From IMG/VR virus record IMGVR_UViG_3300009183_000219, positions 1 to 33,694 of that record: DNA of 33,694 nt; one strand, given 5' to 3'. Shown here piece by piece: positions 23,440-33,694 of the stretch. Each line of letters begins with the position of its first letter. Position 1 is the stretch's first letter. Made by a program: the position numbers and the translations under genes. Below the pieces are notes generated by a model. That model was not told the origin of the DNA, ran no database searches, and worked only from the letters and a program-made list of their open reading frames with translations. This stretch comes from a virus.

Positions 23440-26400
23440 ATGGCAAAAACTGATTGGGAAGTTGTTTCTGAAGCCCCTGCTGCTAAAACTGCAAATAGTG
23501 GTTGGGAAGTTGTTTCTGAAGCCCCTGCTGTACCAACTAAATGGTCAGGAGCAACCTTATCCGAAAAAGATTTACTAGAACTTGAAGCTAACGCCAATAA
23601 AGGGGATGTCCAAATCCAAGACATCCTACGTGCGTACAAGGAAGCCAACCCTACCGGCAAACGCATAACCCAAGCCGAGTTTGCTCCTTCTGCAAAAGCC
23701 CCGGCCCCAGTACAGAAACAAGCTCAGGCGCAACCTGCGGCTACTTCTATGTTAGATAGCGTTGGCAATGTAATGAATACTGTACGGGACTGGGCAACTG
23801 GAGTTCCTATAAATGCTGCGGATGCGGGTAGGTCAGTATTAGGAAGTGGAGCACCGTCACCTGTATCTTCAGAGCAAAACTTAGTTAACACAGGCGCTGT
23901 AAACCCACAATATGTAGCTGCCTTAGAAGCAAAACTTAACTCAATGCCTGCGGCGCAAAGAGGGGTTGCGCTACAACAAGCTATTGCATCAGCGCCTGAA
24001 AACTCAGCCCAAGGACGCGCATTAGCGTTAATTGCTACAAAGTATGCGTCACTAAACAAAGTAACAAGCCCTACGCTGCGTAAGTTAGACCCTCGGCTTG
24101 AAGCGCAAAAAGACCGACTCATTGAGCAAGGGTTAAACCCCGATATTGCTGAAAGTCTAGCTAAACAAAGCGCCGAAGTTGGTGCAATACGTCCTAATGA
24201 AGGGCAAGTAAAAGAATCTCCAGACGAATATGTTAAAGCAGAATCTTATCGCGTACAAGGTAATCTTACCGGCATAGCAAAAACTGGAGAAACGCTAACA
24301 CGAGGGGCGCTAAAAGCTGGGCTTTCCTATGAAAGAGGCGTGCGAGGTGTTAATTTGTTTGTGGGCGACATGCTTGGTTTTGATACGTCTACAAACAAAG
24401 CACGGTTAAATTCTATTGACCAATTTGTTCAAGGAATGGGTGAGCAAAGTTCTAAGCCCCTTAACCTGTTTGAAAGTGCTATTACTTCTATAGGCCAACA
24501 AGCCCCTACGCTTATTGGCGGGGCTTTAACGGGTTCAACACCTGCGGTGCTAAGTGCTATGTTTGCACAATCGTTTGGTCAAACCTACGATGAAGGTGCG
24601 CGTAAAGGACTTGATACTGTTAATAACGCGGCTCGTTCAGCTATGTACGCAGCATTAGAGGTGTTAGGAGAAATGCCGGGTCTTGGTGCCAATATTAAAG
24701 GGCTTAAAGCCGCAGCAAACGGCATGCCTTTAGACCAGATTGCTGGATTTTTTGCTAGAGCTTTAAAGAAAGATGCACCGGGAGAGTTGGTTACTTACGC
24801 TGGACAGTTTGCTGTAGACAAAGGTTACGGCATGAACCCAGAAGCTGGTATTGCCGACTTTATTTCAGGCGCGGCTGATACTGTACTTTCTACTGTTCTT
24901 CAAGCTGGAATAATGACTGGTAGTGGAATAGCAGTGGGTAAAGGGGTAAACAAACTTCGAGCCGTACAAGACAAAATTAAAAGCGGGCAGCGTCAAGCGT
25001 ATAAACAAGACACAAGCTACGAAGGGCTAGCCAGTCTTATTGCGCAGTCTAAAGGGTTTGACTTTAGAGAAAAACATGCGCTGGGTGACCAAGGGTATAA
25101 AGTTGGTGAGTTTTTACGAGCCGAGCGTGAAGGCCCAGCACTGGGCGAAGCTAAAGTTGATACGGGTGCTGAAGGCCCAACACTAGGTGAAGGTCAAATT
25201 AGTACTACTGGTACGCGAGTAGAACCTACGTTAGAAGGCGGTGCAGCTACAACTGCGGCTGCTCCTGTTGGCCCCACACCTGAGGAAATTGAAAAGACCG
25301 CTGCGGGGTTTATGGCTGCTGGAGTTCCAAGAGCCCTTGCGTTAAAGATGGCAGAAAAGCAGTTAGTTGAACAAACAACAAAGACTACCGCAGCAGCACC
25401 TATATCACAAGACTTTTCTAAATTAGCTGCGTGGCCTGATGTTCTGTTAGCGGAAACACTTAAGCTACAGCAAAGTAAGCCTGAGCCCAATCAACCTCTG
25501 GTCGATGCAATTCAAGTTGAAATACAACGCCGAGCGCAAACCCAAGGAGCCCCAAATGCTACAGGAACTGAGTCCGCACCAAGTGGAGGAAGCGCTGGCG
25601 TGGCTGGCGAATCCGTTGCCGGTCAACCCACCGGAGGATTTGAAACACCTACACGAAATGGAGTGGTTTCTTCTGAGCCGAATGCTGGAGTCACTACTAC
25701 AGGAGAAATTTCACAGCCCCCTACAGTAACCACAGGAGCCCCCACAAGTGTCATTACGCCCACTAAAACCAAGCAAACAGAAACGCAAGGACAACCAGCG
25801 CCCGTTACCAAAGTAAAGCACTCAATTGCGCAAAACGATGAAGGTAAGTGGGATTATTTGGTAGACGGTGAAGTAGTTGGAACCTACGATACCAAGCGTC
25901 AGGCTAATACCAAGGCCATACTTGAGCGTTCTATAGTTAAGGGCGATACGGATGTAATTGCTAAAAACCAGCAAGCGCACGATGCTGCAATGACAACAGC
26001 ACGGGGACGCCCGTTAAAGTTATTCCCAAAAGCTAAAGTTGATGTTGGTGAGACTGTTACTGAAGATACTGATACTGGAACTACTGATACTGAAACTACT
26101 GAGACGGCAGAGGGGGAACCTGCTGTTGGTGAGACTGCTAAACCCGAAGCACCAATTGTGCTGCAAGAAGCAAAGACGGTTAGGGGTGATGCGCTTACAG
26201 GGCCATCTACAAAAGTTAAGCTGTCCGATGGTAGTGAGCATGAAATTAACCGACTAGACTCTACTACCAGTATGGGGCTACCGGGGTGGCACGATGTAAA
26301 TGCCGATACGCAAAACAGCTATTTAGCGGACACCAAAGCTGAAGCTATTAAGGAACTAATCCGTCGACAGGAAGAAAAGCGCACGGCTGCTGCTAAAGCT

Positions 26401-29400
26401 CCAACCAAAGAAACCAAAGGTAAGAAAGCCCCGTCTGCTGCCGACGCGCTTGCTGTTGAAACTCAAGAAAAGCTCCAAGAGCTTGAAGACCTGCTTGGGA
26501 ACTACAACACCAACCCAGATGTTGCCGCTGCAAAAGCTTCGGCGCGAAATATCAACCGTATAGCTAATGACCCTGCGCAGCCTAAAGCAGTCAGGGAACG
26601 CGCCAAAAAAATACTGGTGGATGAGATTGATACTAAAGACCTTGTTGAGGGTTCAAGGTATCTTTCTTCTAAGTTTACGCAAAGCCCAGCCGACAAAGCT
26701 TTTGGTAAATTTACAACCGCGTCGCAAGCTATATCGCACATCCTAAGAACTGGTACAAAGTTTCAAAAAACTTTAGCAGCACGCCTACGTGGTTTTGTGC
26801 AGGGCGTTAATTTTGTAGTAGTGGAACAGGGCCAAGCACTGCCTGAAGGTTTGGCTAAGAAGAGCGCAGAGTGGAGCCGCTCCATTGCTATGTATGACAG
26901 AGCAAGCCGTACTATCTATGTGCGCGGTGAGTCATACGGCAATAAACAAGGCATTAACCACGTTACCGTACTGCACGAACTACTGCACGCAGCTACTGCT
27001 AGGAAAATAGACCTAGCTATGAAGGCTATCAAAGACGGGGTTAGTTTGGACTCCCCGTTGGTTCAAGCTGCCCTTACCTTACACCGCACAATGGAGAACG
27101 CCGACACTGCCCTCAGGGAGTTGGCGCGTCAAGGGAAGTTAACTGAAGACTTAGCCACCCTAGCTGTGCATGGTAAAGCCTTTAGCGATACGCATGAGTT
27201 CTTGGCCTACGGCATGACCGACAAGACCATGCAGGATTTCCTGCTTAAGACTAAAGGTGTTGAGGGTGATACGCACCTATTTAATCGGTTTGTTGATAGC
27301 ATGCGCCGTATGTTCGGCATGGGCAAAGACTCGATTAATGCGTTGTCTGACCTAATCTTGGCAACCGACCAACTCTTAAGCGCCCGTGAAATTGGCGGCA
27401 GCATCAAGGAAACTGGGACTCATGCGGCTACTAGTGAAACCAGAGTACAGCCCTCAGCAGACGTTGGGCGCTTAGCCAAGATGCTCGGGTCTAAGCTATA
27501 CGGCACTCCTGACAATATAGCTGCGGTATCCATAAAGGAACTGTTCCAGAATTCTTTTGACGCTATTAAGGGCGCAATAGAAAAGGGTACGCTAAAGTCA
27601 GGCGACATCAAAATAAAAATTGATTCTAGTACTCGCTCTATACAGATAATTGATAACGGCCTTGGCATGCCAACCAGCGTAATGGGTGGTCAATTTTTAA
27701 CCATTGCTGGAACAGTCAAAGAAACTAAACGTGCATCGGGTGGACTTGGCGTTGCCAAAATGTTGTTCCTATTTGAGAACAAAGAGCTAGAGGTAGTGTC
27801 ACTGCGTGATGGTGTTGTATCCCGCATGGTTACTACTGGGGATGACTTAAAAGCTGCATTAACTGACCCCAAGCGAGGACCTATGATCCAGACTACATCC
27901 GATGCAGATGTAGTAGCACGTTACACCAAAGAACTTTTTCCTGACGGGCATGGTACATCCGTACGTGTTCAAGTCCCAGAAACGTATATTAATGAGTCTA
28001 ATGGAGAAGAGTTAAAAATTCCTTTTAGTTCATATGAACTAGAAAGAGCCCCAGTATTACTTGATAGCCCTTTATTTGACAACATAAAAGTTTCTATTGA
28101 TACCGGATACGGCTTAGATACGTTGCCTATTGGTGCTAATTTCCCAGTTGATAAATTTACTCCGTTTGCTAATGTTAAATTTGCTTGGGGTACTGCGCGT
28201 ATATACGTTGGTAAGGATAAACTTTCTTTCGTTGGAAGTACTCGTGGAAATGCACACATACTATCTAATGGCTTATGGCAGTTTAATCTTGTATTAAAGG
28301 ATAAACCGGGTTTTGATGGTGAAGCCATTAAACGTGATTTTTATATAGACGTTACCCCCAATGAAAATGTAAAGCCTGAGGATGCCGGATATCCATTTGA
28401 CTTAAACCGCCAAAACTTTTCTAAAGTAGCTGATAAAGACTTTAAAAAAATATTTAATTACGTAACGGCTATTTACAGCCAACTTGATTTAGCCTCCAGC
28501 GTTAAAAACTTTGGCACAGCACAATACGTTAACAGCAATGGTACGTTGACTAAGGCCGAAACACTGGAACCAAAAGTACCTATATCCGATAACGCATTTA
28601 CGGTTATTAAACCCGACGATAAAGTAGAAGTGCGCGAAGGCGTGCTATACGTTAATAACCGAGCATTACCTGAATTAACCGAAGAAGACTTAAAGAAGAC
28701 TGGTATACGTCTTGAAGAGTTAACCATCCCTCAAGATGAGGTTGATCCTAACAAGGTAATGATCCACGACAATACAGTACTTAAATCTTCTAAATTACCA
28801 AAAGGGGAATTAATACCTATAGCCGAACTTGATGCTTTAGTTGATAAAAATCCGGGTAAATATAAATTAGAACTGTTGCCCGAACCTGATGTCAGGTTTA
28901 CGGTTGTCAATGACGACGGGTCTGTAATGGTGTTTGAAGACACAGCAGAAGAAATTTTTGCTGATCTACAAGGGCTTGGGTTTATACCTAAAGAAACGGA
29001 AAACAAAGAAAAGTCGTTATCTGATGCAGCGCGGGAAAAGTTTGGCGATAAAGCTTATAACAAATATATTTCCGTTATCGGTGAAACGTTCCACAAACTA
29101 CGTGATGCGCTAGTAAACGTAAATAGCGATTATGCTGGCCTTAGCACACAAGTTATTGGCGTTAGCTTAGATAAAAAATACTACGGCGTTAGTATTATGA
29201 TCCCGTTCAAGGGGATGTTTATTAACCCCGCGACTACGGAGTTACAGGGCACCCCTGCACAAATTGCAGTGTCTTTAATAGGCACAATGACCCATGAGCT
29301 TGCGCATTTTAAGCAAAGAAATCATGGTGCTAGCTTTGCAACTGAAATGCAAAAAGTAGTTACGTTACTTGACACCCACCCATCTTTTAGCTTACAACAG

Positions 29401-32400
29401 GTTAAGGCAGACTTAACCTTACACATTGCCGACAACATTGAAATATTTAATTATTTAAACAAGGAGTTCCAAGATGAAAATCTCGACGCTCGTGGAAACC
29501 GCTTCCAAGACGCTAGCTTCGAACAAATCGGAGATGAAGGCTCTGTTGAGCCAATGGAAAGCACTAGCGGAACAGGAAAAGGGCAACCCAGCGTACCCCA
29601 AGGCGCTGGGCAAAGCACTACAGGTGCTGGACAAGTCGGCGTCCCCAAAGGAGTTGGTGGAAAAACTCCGCGAACTGGAAAAGAATTAGACACAGACGTA
29701 TCCAAAGCTGTTAAAAAAGTTGCAGAGTCTAGGAAAGGCGTTGCGCTAGGTGATGCTCTAGCTGATCTATCTAAATGGCGTGACCCCCGTTATCTGTGGG
29801 GGGAAATTAATGGTGTATGGGACTCGCTTAGCGACTCGGCTAGAACTTTTGTTTCCCATTTCTACGATAGCGAAGCCCTTGCTTATGCTGGGCCGGGGGA
29901 CATCATTACTGGGCTAAAAGACGCGCATGAAGCAATTCAAAAAATGTCAGGCTCGGTGCAAACATATTTGCGTGGTGTAGCCAACGTAGCTGATGAAATT
30001 GTTGACTTCTACCGGGCTGAACCTAAAAAACGCCAAGCCTTTGAAGACCTTGTGCATGCGTCTACGCTTGCTAAATACGACCCAGCCAACCCAAATAACG
30101 TTCTGCGGAACAATGAATTAGACAATGATTACGCAGCATTAGGCGATAAAGGGCAAAAAGCTTACAAGCGCTTACGGGACTACTACAAGAGCATGAATGC
30201 TGTTAAGCAGCACTTGCTGGAGGAAAACCTTAGCAATCTAAAACTGTCTGCCGCTGCCCGTAAAAAACTATTGTCAGACGTTAGGGTGCTGTTTGAAGCC
30301 GACAAGGTAGAGCCTTACTTCCCATTAGCCCGCTTTGGGGATTTTGTCTTAGAGACAGGGAAAAAGGGTTCACACGCCACTTACAGGTTTGATACAAAAA
30401 AAGAACGTGACCGTGCAGCTAGAGAATTTGCAAGGCAGCAAGGTAAAAGTGTGGATGACCTTAGGAAAGATGGAGAGCTACGCATAACCGAAGATTTAAA
30501 CGGTGACGGCTTGCGGATTAATATTGAAGGGACTAGCAAGCTACTAAAGGCCGCATACGCTGCGGTAGATTCGGCTAGCGTAACCGACCCTAATATTAAG
30601 CAAAAGCTTAAAGATGACTTATACCAAGCGTACTTGGCGGCTATGCCAGAGAACAGTGTGCGCAAAATGTTTGTGCATCGCAAAGGCACACCGGGGTTTA
30701 GCTCCGATGTTCTTAGGGCAGTCAATGACTCTGGTTCACGAATGGCTCGGGCGTTTGCCAAACTTGAGCATGCCAATGCTATACGTCAAGCCATAGACTT
30801 ATCAAAACGGCAGCTTGAGGGCAATGAAAAATATACCGCGTTTTTTATGCGGATGAACGAAATTGCATCAGAAGCATTACAACCTAGGATTCCAACAGGC
30901 AAAGAAAAATGGCTAGACAACGTTGCAAATGTTATTGTTAAAGCGTCTTTCCTGCGCAACCTGACAAGCTGGTCTTCTGCAATTATGCAGCCAATGGATA
31001 TTTTGCTAAAAGGCGCTCCGGTATTGACGGGTAATCATGGGCCTAAAGCAATGGCTGAGCTATCTAAGATGATGAAGCTGCATAATCAATACGGGGTTTT
31101 GGAAAAAATGCCTAATGGCACTATGCGCTTCCGTGCTCCTAGTATTGAGTTTGCCAAAGGGCTTACCCCCCAAGAACGTTTAGCAGTTCGTGACATGGTA
31201 GATGTGTACGGTGTAACCAGAGACACACTAGCAAATGAAGTGTTCAGCCAAGCTAGGGAACCGGCTACTAAAATAAACAGTAAAGCATTTGAGTTAGGTA
31301 AAGACGCAGTACATAATTTAATACTCGGCGGGCTTATGCACCACGGGGAGCGGTTATCACGTGAGATTATTGCGCTTACTTCTTTCCGTCTAAACATGGC
31401 TGAGTTACAAAAAGCCAACCCCAATGACCCAACAAATTACGATGAAGCAGTAAAGGCAGCAATACGGGAAACAAATGAAGTACTAGGTAACTACAACGCT
31501 AACAATAAGCCTATGCTAATGCGTGGGGCTGGTGGGCGGCTTGTAACCATGTACAAGTTTTTCCCGCTTGTTACTACCAAACTATTGGTGACTAACTTCT
31601 CCAAAATGCTTCCTATGTTTAACAAGGAAGGTAAGGCAGCAGCAGCTACTAAGTTCTTTGGCGTATTAGGTACGCATACATTATTCGGTGGCCTTGTGGC
31701 ATTGCCTGCGTTTAGCTTAGTGATGGGGCTACTGCAAGCTGCTTGGGAAAAATGGCAAAAAGACCCCGATGCTCCCGATGAGATGCGGGACATTGACTAT
31801 GAAACTTGGTGGCGTACTGTGTGGTTGCCTGAAAACTTAGGCAGCACAGGGTTAGCTCAGTTAGCAGAATACGGTTTACTAAATAAGTTAACTGGGTTTG
31901 ATATATCCAGCCGTATATCCTTGAACGATATGTGGTTCCGTGATCCGCAGCCGGGTAAAAATGCAAAAGAAACAGCCTTAAACTGGGGGCAAGTAATGTT
32001 TGGCGCTGCTTGGACTACTGGGCTAAATGCGATTCAAGGTATTGACCTTATGACCCAAGGCGAGTACGAACGTGGGCTGGAAAAACTAACCCCTGCTTCT
32101 ATAAGCAAATTAATGGTAGCCCATAGGTACGCAACTGAAGGTGTGCAAACACCCCAAGGCGTGCAGTTAATAGAGAAGGGTAAAGTACCAAAGAGCGAGC
32201 TTGTCGGTCAAGCTATTGGCTATGCTCCAGCACGAGTAGCAGAAGCCCAAACTACGGCGTTTAAAGCGCAAGCTGCTGAAAAAGTCATTGTGCATGAACG
32301 GGAAACAATTATGGGTACGTTGAAAAACTCATTCCGTAAGTCCATCGACCCTAACAAAGATACTGAAATACATGAACGCTTTGACAAAATATTCCAAGAC

Positions 32401-32604
32401 ACCTTGGACAAGGCCACAGACTTTAGCCTACGTAACCCTGAACGCGAAATTAAAGGTGAGGAAATTACCAAGGCTCTAAACGATGAGTTGAAGAGGGTAG
32501 TTGAAACTGAAATGGGTAGCGGTATTAAGATGACTAAAGAAAACGCTAGGTTACTTTCACCTTCAATAGAAAAAGCAGAAAGAGCTTTGGCTCCCTACAA
32601 ATAA
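23440..32604 (+). CDS. 3054-residue polyvalent protein: two zincins plus GHKL ATPase
   Basis: Visible domains in order: a tandem N-terminal WEVVSEAPA motif (residues 5-30); helical virion-type region; low-complexity linker (about 560-790); small beta/alpha domain with KWDYLVDGEVVGTYDTK (about 800); zincin 1 with HELLH 1179-1183 and THEFLAYG (E1253 a possible third ligand); GHKL ATPase with N-box ELFQNSFDAI (E1367, N1371, D1374), DNGLGM 1405-1410 and GGLGVAK from 1434; zincin 2 with HELAH 1952-1956 and H1962 in NHGASF; linker (about 2010-2085); and a long helical C-terminus with a hydrophobic stretch near 2740-2775. It starts one base after the previous stop without a Shine-Dalgarno, so translation is likely coupled. 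Probable ejected internal protein acting in the host; activities are predicted, not shown. Confidence 0.88.
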   Translation: MAKTDWEVVSEAPAAKTANSGWEVVSEAPAVPTKWSGATLSEKDLLELEANANKGDVQIQDILRAYKEANPTGKRITQAEFAPSAKAPAPVQKQAQAQPAATSMLDSVGNVMNTVRDWATGVPINAADAGRSVLGSGAPSPVSSEQNLVNTGAVNPQYVAALEAKLNSMPAAQRGVALQQAIASAPENSAQGRALALIATKYASLNKVTSPTLRKLDPRLEAQKDRLIEQGLNPDIAESLAKQSAEVGAIRPNEGQVKESPDEYVKAESYRVQGNLTGIAKTGETLTRGALKAGLSYERGVRGVNLFVGDMLGFDTSTNKARLNSIDQFVQGMGEQSSKPLNLFESAITSIGQQAPTLIGGALTGSTPAVLSAMFAQSFGQTYDEGARKGLDTVNNAARSAMYAALEVLGEMPGLGANIKGLKAAANGMPLDQIAGFFARALKKDAPGELVTYAGQFAVDKGYGMNPEAGIADFISGAADTVLSTVLQAGIMTGSGIAVGKGVNKLRAVQDKIKSGQRQAYKQDTSYEGLASLIAQSKGFDFREKHALGDQGYKVGEFLRAEREGPALGEAKVDTGAEGPTLGEGQISTTGTRVEPTLEGGAATTAAAPVGPTPEEIEKTAAGFMAAGVPRALALKMAEKQLVEQTTKTTAAAPISQDFSKLAAWPDVLLAETLKLQQSKPEPNQPLVDAIQVEIQRRAQTQGAPNATGTESAPSGGSAGVAGESVAGQPTGGFETPTRNGVVSSEPNAGVTTTGEISQPPTVTTGAPTSVITPTKTKQTETQGQPAPVTKVKHSIAQNDEGKWDYLVDGEVVGTYDTKRQANTKAILERSIVKGDTDVIAKNQQAHDAAMTTARGRPLKLFPKAKVDVGETVTEDTDTGTTDTETTETAEGEPAVGETAKPEAPIVLQEAKTVRGDALTGPSTKVKLSDGSEHEINRLDSTTSMGLPGWHDVNADTQNSYLADTKAEAIKELIRRQEEKRTAAAKAPTKETKGKKAPSAADALAVETQEKLQELEDLLGNYNTNPDVAAAKASARNINRIANDPAQPKAVRERAKKILVDEIDTKDLVEGSRYLSSKFTQSPADKAFGKFTTASQAISHILRTGTKFQKTLAARLRGFVQGVNFVVVEQGQALPEGLAKKSAEWSRSIAMYDRASRTIYVRGESYGNKQGINHVTVLHELLHAATARKIDLAMKAIKDGVSLDSPLVQAALTLHRTMENADTALRELARQGKLTEDLATLAVHGKAFSDTHEFLAYGMTDKTMQDFLLKTKGVEGDTHLFNRFVDSMRRMFGMGKDSINALSDLILATDQLLSAREIGGSIKETGTHAATSETRVQPSADVGRLAKMLGSKLYGTPDNIAAVSIKELFQNSFDAIKGAIEKGTLKSGDIKIKIDSSTRSIQIIDNGLGMPTSVMGGQFLTIAGTVKETKRASGGLGVAKMLFLFENKELEVVSLRDGVVSRMVTTGDDLKAALTDPKRGPMIQTTSDADVVARYTKELFPDGHGTSVRVQVPETYINESNGEELKIPFSSYELERAPVLLDSPLFDNIKVSIDTGYGLDTLPIGANFPVDKFTPFANVKFAWGTARIYVGKDKLSFVGSTRGNAHILSNGLWQFNLVLKDKPGFDGEAIKRDFYIDVTPNENVKPEDAGYPFDLNRQNFSKVADKDFKKIFNYVTAIYSQLDLASSVKNFGTAQYVNSNGTLTKAETLEPKVPISDNAFTVIKPDDKVEVREGVLYVNNRALPELTEEDLKKTGIRLEELTIPQDEVDPNKVMIHDNTVLKSSKLPKGELIPIAELDALVDKNPGKYKLELLPEPDVRFTVVNDDGSVMVFEDTAEEIFADLQGLGFIPKETENKEKSLSDAAREKFGDKAYNKYISVIGETFHKLRDALVNVNSDYAGLSTQVIGVSLDKKYYGVSIMIPFKGMFINPATTELQGTPAQIAVSLIGTMTHELAHFKQRNHGASFATEMQKVVTLLDTHPSFSLQQVKADLTLHIADNIEIFNYLNKEFQDENLDARGNRFQDASFEQIGDEGSVEPMESTSGTGKGQPSVPQGAGQSTTGAGQVGVPKGVGGKTPRTGKELDTDVSKAVKKVAESRKGVALGDALADLSKWRDPRYLWGEINGVWDSLSDSARTFVSHFYDSEALAYAGPGDIITGLKDAHEAIQKMSGSVQTYLRGVANVADEIVDFYRAEPKKRQAFEDLVHASTLAKYDPANPNNVLRNNELDNDYAALGDKGQKAYKRLRDYYKSMNAVKQHLLEENLSNLKLSAAARKKLLSDVRVLFEADKVEPYFPLARFGDFVLETGKKGSHATYRFDTKKERDRAAREFARQQGKSVDDLRKDGELRITEDLNGDGLRINIEGTSKLLKAAYAAVDSASVTDPNIKQKLKDDLYQAYLAAMPENSVRKMFVHRKGTPGFSSDVLRAVNDSGSRMARAFAKLEHANAIRQAIDLSKRQLEGNEKYTAFFMRMNEIASEALQPRIPTGKEKWLDNVANVIVKASFLRNLTSWSSAIMQPMDILLKGAPVLTGNHGPKAMAELSKMMKLHNQYGVLEKMPNGTMRFRAPSIEFAKGLTPQERLAVRDMVDVYGVTRDTLANEVFSQAREPATKINSKAFELGKDAVHNLILGGLMHHGERLSREIIALTSFRLNMAELQKANPNDPTNYDEAVKAAIRETNEVLGNYNANNKPMLMRGAGGRLVTMYKFFPLVTTKLLVTNFSKMLPMFNKEGKAAAATKFFGVLGTHTLFGGLVALPAFSLVMGLLQAAWEKWQKDPDAPDEMRDIDYETWWRTVWLPENLGSTGLAQLAEYGLLNKLTGFDISSRISLNDMWFRDPQPGKNAKETALNWGQVMFGAAWTTGLNAIQGIDLMTQGEYERGLEKLTPASISKLMVAHRYATEGVQTPQGVQLIEKGKVPKSELVGQAIGYAPARVAEAQTTAFKAQAAEKVIVHERETIMGTLKNSFRKSIDPNKDTEIHERFDKIFQDTLDKATDFSLRNPEREIKGEEITKALNDELKRVVETEMGSGIKMTKENARLLSPSIEKAERALAPYK
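23454..23530 (+). repeat. 29-bp direct repeat, 48-bp period, encoding WEVVSEAPA twice
   Basis: A 29-base sequence at 23454-23482 (TTGGGAAGTTGTTTCTGAAG...) recurs without mismatch at 23502-23530, giving two copies of WEVVSEAPA 16 residues apart. Exact nucleotide identity means a recent duplication or ongoing slippage-type exchange. It lies at the extreme N-terminus of the giant protein, where it may act as a packaging or docking signal. Confidence 0.9.
25556..25729 (+). CDS. nested 57-residue gene in +1 frame of giant gene
   Basis: This ORF lies wholly inside the 3054-codon gene, one base out of frame. It starts at ATG 25556 with AAGGAG at 25544-25549, six bases upstream. The product, MLQELSPHQVEEALAWLANP then LPVNPPEDLKHLHEMEWFLL and SRMLESLLQEKFHSPLQ, is a well-composed helical protein, and codons such as CTG, GAG, GCG and CCG dominate. 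In contrast the giant gene's own frame here is a Gly/Ser/Thr/Pro linker. The ALAWLxNPxP..P..LKHL..xEW..L..LL..LLxEKxxSPL pattern resembles small phage proteins I remember, which I could not verify. Function unknown. Confidence 0.65.
   Translation: MLQELSPHQVEEALAWLANPLPVNPPEDLKHLHEMEWFLLSRMLESLLQEKFHSPLQ
29474..29689 (+). CDS. nested 71-residue gene in +1 frame of giant gene
   Basis: A second ORF within the giant gene, again in the +1 frame. AAGGAG at 29461-29466 is seven bases before ATG 29474. The product (MKISTLVETASKTLASNKSE, MKALLSQWKALAEQEKGNPA, YPKALGKALQVLDKSASPKE, LVEKLRELEKN) is a basic helical protein with a plausible two- or three-helix bundle. Third codon positions are rich in G/C. 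The overlapping giant-gene frame encodes a Gly/Gln/Thr/Ser/Pro linker (SGTGKGQPSVPQGAGQST) with the look of an out-of-frame reading. No family recognised. It ends at TAG 29687-29689. Confidence 0.65.
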   Translation: MKISTLVETASKTLASNKSEMKALLSQWKALAEQEKGNPAYPKALGKALQVLDKSASPKELVEKLRELEKN

Positions 32605-32683: not shown

Positions 32684-32878
32684 TCAAACCCGCCAGACTC
32701 GCAAGCCTTTGATACCGTCTACTATCTCTACCTTGGATATGGTGTCTATCTTTAGGCGTTTTGTAACAGTAGCCACCTCTGCCCGTGCAGCTTTGTGGTC
32801 AATGCAGGGTACAAAAAACGAATGGCCTTTGCGAAACTTAGACCAGTCAATCCTGTACGTCACCGTCTCTATTTTCAT
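32684..32878 (-). CDS. small conserved protein of replication operon
   Basis: A 64-residue basic protein on the minus strand: YRIDWSKFRKGHSFFVPCID, HKAARAEVATVTKRLKIDTI and VEIVDGIKGLRVWRV. I recall the pattern W.KF..G.SFFVPC...GI.GLRVWRV from small proteins of phage replication modules. Its start lies 32 bases inside the end of the upstream DUF927-type gene, so translation is probably coupled; no strong Shine-Dalgarno is seen. The beta-alpha-beta-like layout and basic charge are compatible with nucleic-acid or protein binding. It is the last gene before the leftward terminator. Confidence 0.75.
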   Translation of the reverse strand: MKIETVTYRIDWSKFRKGHSFFVPCIDHKAARAEVATVTKRLKIDTISKVEIVDGIKGLRVWRV

Positions 32879-33694
32879 TGGTGCCCAATATAGCTTCTAC
32901 TTGCAGGAACTCGTTATTGGAGGCGTCAAACTTCAGTACACGAACGGCGGGCGATACAACCTTCATACCCTTGGACATACGCTTATTGGTAGCCTCAACA
33001 AAAACTTGCAAGTCGGTGAGCTTCTTAAGTAACTCTTTGTAACCAATCTGCTGCTTGACGCAGAAGTCTTTGAACTGCTTAGCTGCAATGTACAGGTGCT
33101 TGGTATCGGGCTCGTAGCGTATCAATAGCTCATTGCGGGGTTCCAGTGAAGGCATAGAAATCAAGTTGCTTCGGGCATCTACTTCACCGTTAACCACCAG
33201 TGTGTTGAAGATGTGGGAATTAATAAACTCACCCAGTGCGGCTACGGGCGTGGAGTTTGGTGGCTTTACGTCATTACGCATCTCAGACAGCATGCCCTTG
33301 AGCCAGCTATACACCTTTGCCATATCGTAGTTGTGCAACTCTAAGCTCTTGGCGATAAGACCACCGGCAATGTTGCATGCAGCTACGGCTGACCAAAACC
33401 GCTCACGGGCTGTGAACTGTATTTCCTTGTCAATGCGGGCCTGAATCTTCTTAACTAGGGCTTTGGCCTCTTCAAGGTTGTTCACTAGCCAAGTGATATA
33501 GATTTCCCCCGCATGTCCGTAGTTCTCGTTAAGCTGGTGGTCAAACATCTCTTTACCATGCGCTACGCCGATTAGGTCGTTGGGCTCTATCTTGTACTCC
33601 AGTAACCGTACTGATTCACCATCCGGTGTATTCTTTGCTGTACCCAGCTTTTCGTAAAAGCTACAGTTAGCTGAGCATAGGGTCATGTTTTTCC
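32847..33694 (-). CDS. DUF927-type replication protein, C-terminal part
   Basis: The minus-strand frame is open to the right edge; the Met at 33686 is probably internal, because TLCSANCSFYEKLGTAKNTP corresponds to the interior of DUF927 proteins as I know them. Further blocks are GESVRLLEYKIEPNDLIGVA, LNENYGHAGEIYITWLVNN, FTARERFWSAVAACNIAGGL and IAKSLELHNYD. DUF927 proteins act in plasmid and phage replication, usually fused to or next to primase-helicase parts. About 282 residues are visible, so the N-terminal ATPase part lies outside the window. The C-terminal 110 residues (LGEFINSHIFNTLVVNG and following) are an extra domain. Replication role is inferred from family knowledge. Confidence 0.75.
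   Translation of the reverse strand, partial: KNMTLCSANCSFYEKLGTAKNTPDGESVRLLEYKIEPNDLIGVAHGKEMFDHQLNENYGHAGEIYITWLVNNLEEAKALVKKIQARIDKEIQFTARERFWSAVAACNIAGGLIAKSLELHNYDMAKVYSWLKGMLSEMRNDVKPPNSTPVAALGEFINSHIFNTLVVNGEVDARSNLISMPSLEPRNELLIRYEPDTKHLYIAAKQFKDFCVKQQIGYKELLKKLTDLQVFVEATNKRMSKGMKVVSPAVRVLKFDASNNEFLQVEAILGTNENRDGDVQD

Follow-up and report, generated by a model that had tools for sequence, protein, structure and literature searches.

The window analysed here, a 33,694-base IMG/VR virus record (IMGVR_UViG_3300009183_000219), encodes a giant protein in which a GHKL ATPase is fused to a zincin metallopeptidase. We found that these enzymes are a two-enzyme unit, and sequence comparison with relatives showed that both lie in a mobile stretch of about 760 residues, a cassette that large phage polyvalent proteins carry as an insert. 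The initial annotation had described the ATPase as flanked by two zincins. All of the motifs it listed (HELLH, the GHKL boxes and HELAH...NHGASF, with NHGASF at residues 1961-1966) are found where it placed them, in one 3054-residue open reading frame (ORF), numbered in amino acids 1-3054 throughout (Table 1). When the protein was shuffled 3000 times, at least two HExxH motifs appeared in three cases; the conservation described below is the stronger sign that the motifs are real. We call the zincin upstream of the ATPase the first zincin and the one within the cassette the second.

We searched for relatives with a GHKL query (27430-28590), which found 42 virus loci at 40-100% identity, with a module profile (residues 1330-2010), from which the best 80 of 112 stretches were taken, and with a profile of divergent members, from which we took the best 80 of 207 stretches, themselves from 245 that matched the pattern. 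The ATPase, a link segment and the second zincin lay in this fixed order in one ORF in 80/80 of the best 80 of the 112 stretches. Among 80 distinct modules pooled from several scans, 78 carry both enzymes in a single ORF. Of the two exceptions, L043 stops at a contig end and L212 is split by a run of Ns and has its zincin in the ORF that follows. When only the second zincin served as query, the scan returned 80 loci, four of them known, and in the 76 new loci all 76 ORFs with this zincin also carried the ATPase. Considering this same-ORF linkage and the complete co-occurrence with the ATPase, the two domains form a unit. The 65 distinct complete cassette ORFs are all 1895-3355 residues long and none is a stand-alone cassette, not counting ORFs cut by a contig end. 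The longest ORF seen, of 4891 residues, begins at the edge of its stretch (L102, position 3 onward) and has the cassette within it.

The first zincin is not part of this unit. In the 65 complete cassette ORFs it was found before the cassette in 26 and after it in nine, and was undetected in 30. A scan with the first zincin gave 80 loci, of which 47 run straight into the C-terminal backbone without a cassette (37 of these as complete ORFs) and the other 33 have the GHKL-zincin unit in between. The ATPase flanked by two zincins is therefore true of the window protein but not a conserved arrangement, and a three-part unit does not hold up: the ATPase is obligately tied to the second zincin alone. 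A protease-ATPase-protease sandwich was rejected as the unit, because the first zincin occurs independently of the cassette.

Comparison with L129 and L130, both closely related to the window, shows the boundaries of the insert. Both align to it at about 81-84% DNA identity until base 27395, and the alignment picks up again at 29728 (L129) or 29852 (L130) and runs to the end, the intervening stretch being absent. The cassette has a lower GC content (0.417) than its two flanks (0.479 and 0.454). Proteins without the cassette have 62-98 residues from the first zincin to the backbone, and those with it 774-1019. We built a tree from the C-terminal backbones of 61 distinct proteins, leaving out truncated and identical ones; 26 of the 61 have the cassette and 35 lack it. 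Its presence changes five times on this tree, at least four of them on well-supported branches; the tree is a quick one with a long-branch warning, and gain and loss are indistinguishable on it. Among 19 dissimilar giant proteins, the invariant columns all lie within the cassette except M1, P156 and P170.

We next looked at the residues of both enzymes in an alignment of 79 modules, which takes in the window and leaves out L043 and L212, where the full pair is not in one ORF. All 79 keep K1366, E1367, N1371, D1374, D1405, G1409, M1410, G1434, G1437, K1440 and R1657 of the ATPase part and H1952, E1953, H1956, H1962 and F1966 of the second zincin, so that the HExxHx5H zinc site is found in 79/79. 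Exceptions are limited to G1407, which differs in one row, and G1435 in the lid motif, which differs in five. In the first zincin, H1179, E1180, H1183 and E1253 are identical in 33/33 rows. The conservation of catalytic residues on which the initial annotation had made its reading depend is thus present in all three enzymes. That the domains are decayed, or structural without catalysis, is very improbable, since the catalytic residues are intact in 79/79 modules and down to 36% identity to the window, the limit reached by a 31-row module alignment.

The ATPase has N, G1 and G2 boxes with the expected E/N/D residues, a DxGxG motif and a glycine-rich lid motif, and HATPase_c_3 was detected in 31/31 relatives at E<=1. 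An AlphaFold2 model of the module from 31 sequences has a mean predicted local distance difference test score (pLDDT) of 82.5 and a predicted template modelling score (pTM) of 0.59. Residues 10-426 of this model match Hsp90 (8eob_B) with a VIA Z of 19.0 (root-mean-square deviation 3.7, 285 aligned), which agrees with the Bergerat fold that structure prediction had been expected to show. Topo VI-B and GyrB score about 18, within about 1 Z of Hsp90, and because these values are nearly equal the fold leaves the GHKL branch undecided. The model and a profile alignment indicate that the Bergerat fold is followed by an S5-type domain with a predicted catalytic basic residue. Conserved residues and predicted fold together show a GHKL/S5 ATPase that appears intact and is modelled as Hsp90-like in shape. 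It is not a recognised HSP90 family member, as its NCBIfam scores of 22.9 and 14.5 do not reach the cut-offs of 455 and 371.

Escherichia coli HtpG aligned to the module over 353 columns (probability 93.7, E 1.9e-7) in a low-threshold local profile run, whereas global hhalign runs gave no meaningful alignment. The local run pairs E1367 with E34, N1371 with N38, D1374 with D41, D1405 with D80, G1409 with G84, G1437 with G124 and R1657 with R336. HtpG R336, in the NVSRE motif, is presumably the middle-domain arginine that acts in Hsp90 hydrolysis. Counting against this likeness, K1440 of the module pairs with a Phe in HtpG. The cassette thus resembles Hsp90/HtpG in its Bergerat fold, boxes and predicted transducer arginine, but it has a zincin where Hsp90 has its C-terminal domain.

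Phages have a GHKL protein of their own, rIIA, and the cassette could act like T4 rIIA against abortive infection, with the zincin as a variable C-terminal effector. Orthologues of rIIA combine an N-terminal GHKL domain with an additional, highly variable C-terminal domain (PMC7824862). The RIIA PHROG 2979 weakly matches 5/31 modules, RIIA structures are among the BFVD matches, and a tblastn search of phage records with the L123 module returned rIIA-like proteins alone, including one of a Streptomyces phage at E 0.04. However, T4 rIIA itself was not recovered by profile comparison (E 0.39, probability 0.2), its SRE motif did not pair with R1657 in the local run, and HtpG is far closer. The C-terminal part of the cassette is a conserved zincin rather than a variable domain, and it sits in giant proteins of 1895-3355 residues as against 725 for stand-alone rIIA. 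We therefore regard an rIIA-like protector as quite improbable. Simple homology to rIIA was tried separately and rejected: the profile comparison with T4 rIIA was null and that with the rIIA-like protein of Streptomyces phage Jay2Jay was weak (E 0.0036).

The second zincin was modelled inside the module, whose VIA list is filled by the ATPase part. Its region has a pLDDT of mostly 84-97, and DSSP assigns residues 541-650 of the model a helix, three strands, the HExxH helix and a further helix, as in zincins of the Wss1/YgjP kind. The top solved structure for its profile is Wss1p (5xbn_A; E 1.7e-4, 29 residues), and E. coli YgjP matches it with hhalign at probability 87 over 20 columns (E 3.9e-6). 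Like Wss1/WLM and YgjP, it is a short zincin with an HExxHx5H site. Unlike Wss1, which recruits Cdc48, it has an ATPase of its own on the same chain.

The first zincin belongs to a different clade. Its model (pLDDT 88.6) has an HExxH motif and a Glu in a later helix, as in the MPTase domains of polyvalent proteins. VIA matched it to gp48, the tetrameric ejection protein of PhiM1 (8vb2_A; Z 9.9, 129 aligned), and to residues 2138-2359 of gp50, the virion RNA polymerase of N4 (Z 9.5, 177 aligned). The N4 match falls within residues 2130-2448, a region assigned to a zincin-like metallopeptidase (PMC5512222). In sequence, the first zincin is similar to 9sfn_G, the solved structure of an internal virion protein of a phage (E 1.4e-15), and the phikF77 protein that carries a relative of it is also an internal virion protein. 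The relation comes from VIA and sequence, as none of 169 Foldseek matches of the model in the PDB had E<=0.001. The first zincin is thus an optional ejectosome peptidase of the PhiM1 gp48/N4 virion RNA polymerase type.

The match also overlaps a domain that carries an endolysin/exotransglycosylase-like annotation in the ejection proteins of phiKMV-type phages and of PhiM1, where it spans Asp268-Asp528 (PMC11440229). An HEAVH motif is found at residue 423 of phikF77 gp41 (L126, 4915-8928), and an HELIH motif at residue 609 of YIMV22061_00031. The endolysin/exotransglycosylase-like annotation of these proteins may be wrong.

The carrier is a polyvalent phage protein, as the initial annotation had proposed. 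It has LPD39 at 33 bits (Pfam cut-off 27), it matches the PHROG 'DarB-like antirestriction', and its tail is an NCBIfam PLxRFG (E 2.9e-84). LPD39, the PLxRFG tail, the Glu-type first peptidase and the giant size are shared with the polyvalent proteins described with the MPTase domain (Iyer 2017), where the third ligand is Glu; in the second zincin it is His. A predicted DNA ejection gene lies directly upstream of the giant-protein ORF. From this neighbour, and from a first zincin that matches the PhiM1 ejectosome, the N4 virion RNA polymerase and the phikF77 internal virion protein, we infer that the giant protein stands in the position of a T7 gp16-type ejection protein and probably enters the cell with the DNA. 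A linker rich in Gly, Ser, Pro and Thr (residues 2015-2085) joins the cassette to the C-terminal backbone.

We infer the coupling of the two enzymes, their substrate and their role as follows, in a reading whose chances we judge to be even. The cassette would be an exchangeable injected payload that uses ATP to clamp or remodel a host protein, supplies it to the fused peptidase and thereby counters early host defence. Carried by an ejection protein, it would enter the cell with the phage DNA; binding of ATP would close the GHKL-S5 unit, probably as a dimer, round its client; and hydrolysis would remodel the client or hold it for the tethered peptidase, leading to cleavage. The client would come from the host and not be the phage polypeptide itself, given that the backbone works without the cassette, and most likely the cassette would act against host defence within minutes of the start of infection. 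The earlier idea of a remodeller that presents targets to proteases is a sensible candidate mechanism, now with one protease rather than two, and the patchy, cassette-like distribution appears to favour the anti-defence module that was proposed along with it. A setting of conflict with the host also speaks for the injected payload: sequenced phages that share the C-terminal backbone often have it annotated as DarB-like antirestriction.

Energy-dependent proteolysis is normally done by AAA+ machines, and to our knowledge Hsp90-type ATPases are not normally coupled to a protease. If the above is true, the conserved GHKL-zincin fusion would couple ATP to proteolysis by a new route, and the probable ejection proteins of many uncultured phages would carry a new class of payload against host defence, loaded in advance. 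The cassette also opens to direct test the question of how the modules carried by giant ejected proteins act and which host proteins they act on.

Several observations weigh against this injected-payload reading. The window is below the Pfam cut-offs for HATPase_c_3 (23/25) and HATPase_c (22.4/26.4) as well as for YgjP (17.1/26) and WLM (13.1/26), and the similarity to Wss1 and YgjP is confined to 20-29 residues round the active site. Since its scores are under these cut-offs, we call the second zincin Wss1/YgjP-like by sequence and do not class it as a family member. With a pTM of 0.59 and poorly predicted stretches at module residues 20-24, 95-97 and 104-106, the model leaves the domain arrangement and the ATP lid unsure. 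The distant L212 module, outside the 79, reads HEINHx5E, with Glu replacing the third His. No gene near the cassette points to a target.

Alternatively, the cassette could serve the giant protein itself, the ATPase unfolding or refolding the polypeptide round ejection and the peptidase cutting it into working pieces. Zincins of polyvalent proteins have been proposed to process their own chain, with P1 DdrB being cleaved before packaging (PMC5512222), and the PhiM1 ejectosome must fit through an opening of ~30 A (PMC11440229). Conversely, 35/61 proteins with the same backbone have no cassette, including the nearest relatives L129 and L130, so processing cannot depend on it, and many backbones already have the other zincin. 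With the cassette missing from over half of the backbones sampled, an essential duty in ejection or self-processing is less likely, and we consider this alternative unlikely.

A GHKL-S5 dimer might instead encircle or scan the incoming DNA in the manner of MutL/MORC while the Wss1-like peptidase strips restriction or nucleoid proteins bound to it, which we likewise hold to be unlikely. The closest solved peptidase is Wss1p, and yeast Wss1 clears chromatin-bound proteins in partnership with the ATPase Cdc48 (PMC4559962). MORC/paraMORC ATPases, which share the GHKL and S5 domains and a conflict setting with the cassette, work alongside restriction systems (PMC2292703), and the BbrUII/HgiDII restriction enzymes are among the families that one module hits in NCBIfam (E 1.4e-7). 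However, no DNA-binding domain was identified in the cassette, and Hsp90 is at least as close to it as MutL/MORC, with Hsp90, topo VI-B and GyrB within about 1 Z of each other. MORC/paraMORC and BbrUII/HgiDII are also bacterial defence genes, whereas the cassette is part of a probably injected phage protein. The words 'peptidase' and 'protease' are absent from the main text of PMC2292703.

The analogy with Wss1-Cdc48 and the links between GHKL proteins and restriction led us to a narrower and bolder version of the injected payload, which is doubtful. Here the cassette would be a single-chain injected counterpart of yeast Wss1-Cdc48, its Hsp90/MORC-like clamp capturing host defence proteins bound to the DNA of the incoming phage and handing them to the Wss1-like protease. 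On the shared ejection-protein backbone, it would be interchangeable with the methylase-helicase payload of DarB. The C-terminal backbone is common to the window protein and the DarB-like antirestriction giants of Bcep22-like phages; it matches 32 sequenced phage records, many of them annotated as DarB-like antirestriction. Two of the three DarB-like records examined have an Eco57I-type methylase and an SNF2/helicase upstream of LPD39, and the third has a weak methyltransferase-type match. None of the three has the GHKL-zincin cassette, and 19 cassette-bearing giants have no Pfam methylase or SNF2 domain at E<=0.001. Judging from these small numbers, the cassette may be an alternative payload to the methylase-helicase on the same carrier.

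In 50,697 phage records, tblastn with the window cassette gave a Lactococcus phage gyrase as its sole match (E 0.8) and with the L085 module gave none; such misses may reflect sensitivity rather than absence. One UniProt protein in BFVD, A0A516L4L2_1, contains the module (31% identity, E 2.2e-53). A first scan of bacterial genomes found no relative and a second found three loci, of which L211 and L212 have genes that look phage-like and L213 is a short match, so no cellular ancestor was found in the two scans. The cassette ORF of L211 (126-6245), on a deltaproteobacterial metagenome-assembled genome (MAG), bears a C-terminal polypeptide deformylase domain (E 4e-36). L212 (33-2277) is a Neisseriaceae MAG contig with a distant cassette, its two domains separated by the run of Ns. 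PADLOC models had no match under E 0.005 to two modules.

The initial annotation had also called the combination unusual, and we recognised no description of a GHKL-zincin fusion in phages in the literature searched, which covered few subscription journals. GHKL, HSP90 and Bergerat have no occurrence in the main text of PMC5512222. The enzyme folds and the polyvalent carrier are already known; what looks undescribed in that literature is the fusion of the two enzymes and the cassette-like behaviour of the resulting unit.

Table 1. Features of the giant protein and its upstream neighbour in the window (aa, amino acids).
Feature	Position	Strand	Basis
Predicted ejection protein, adjoining, 875 aa	20811..23438	+	PHROG 4287 'DNA ejection protein', E 1.3e-7
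Giant polyvalent, probably ejected protein, 3054 aa	23440..32604	+	single ORF, ATG to stop; LPD39, DarB-like PHROG and PLxRFG matches
First zincin, ejectosome/N4 virion RNA polymerase type, aa 1095-1300	26722..27339	+	conservation, model, structure and sequence matches
First-zincin motif HELLH, aa 1179-1183	26974..26988	+	33/33 rows
E1253 in EFxAYG, predicted third zinc ligand of first zincin	27196..27198	+	33/33 and 18/18 rows
Cassette, missing from near relatives L129 and L130	27396..29727	+	both flanks align
GHKL ATPase, S5/transducer and following segment, aa 1339-1755	27454..28704	+	model match to Hsp90; HATPase_c_3
N box ELFQNSFDA, aa 1367-1375 (E1367, N1371, D1374)	27538..27564	+	sequence and conservation
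G1 box DNGLGM, aa 1405-1410	27652..27669	+	sequence and conservation
G2 box GGLGVAK, aa 1434-1440	27739..27759	+	sequence and conservation
Predicted transducer arginine R1657 in YPFDLNRQ, aligned to HtpG R336	28408..28410	+	79/79; profile alignment
Conserved link segment, aa 1720-1784, no known family	28597..28791	+	80/80 loci
Second zincin, Wss1/YgjP-like, aa 1857-1979	29008..29376	+	model, Wss1p and YgjP matches
Second-zincin motif HELAH, aa 1952-1956	29293..29307	+	79/79 rows
H1962, predicted third zinc ligand of second zincin	29323..29325	+	79/79
LPD39/PLxRFG C-terminal backbone, common to DarB-like giant proteins	29977..32529	+	Pfam, PHROG, NCBIfam and phage-record matches

In plasmids, the L085 module gave nothing beyond short GHKL matches in nine records (best E 3e-5). 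Plasmid GHKL 'ATP-binding proteins' (L292-L294) are weakly cassette-like (L293, 5052-6797). A GHKL protein on a Streptococcus agalactiae plasmid adjoins HaeIII-type restriction genes, and those on rhizobial plasmids adjoin DGQHR, radical SAM and helicase genes. At the edge of the window, a convergent ORF (32847-33692, minus strand) resembles PHROG 25314, of unknown function, and weakly a phage primase/helicase.

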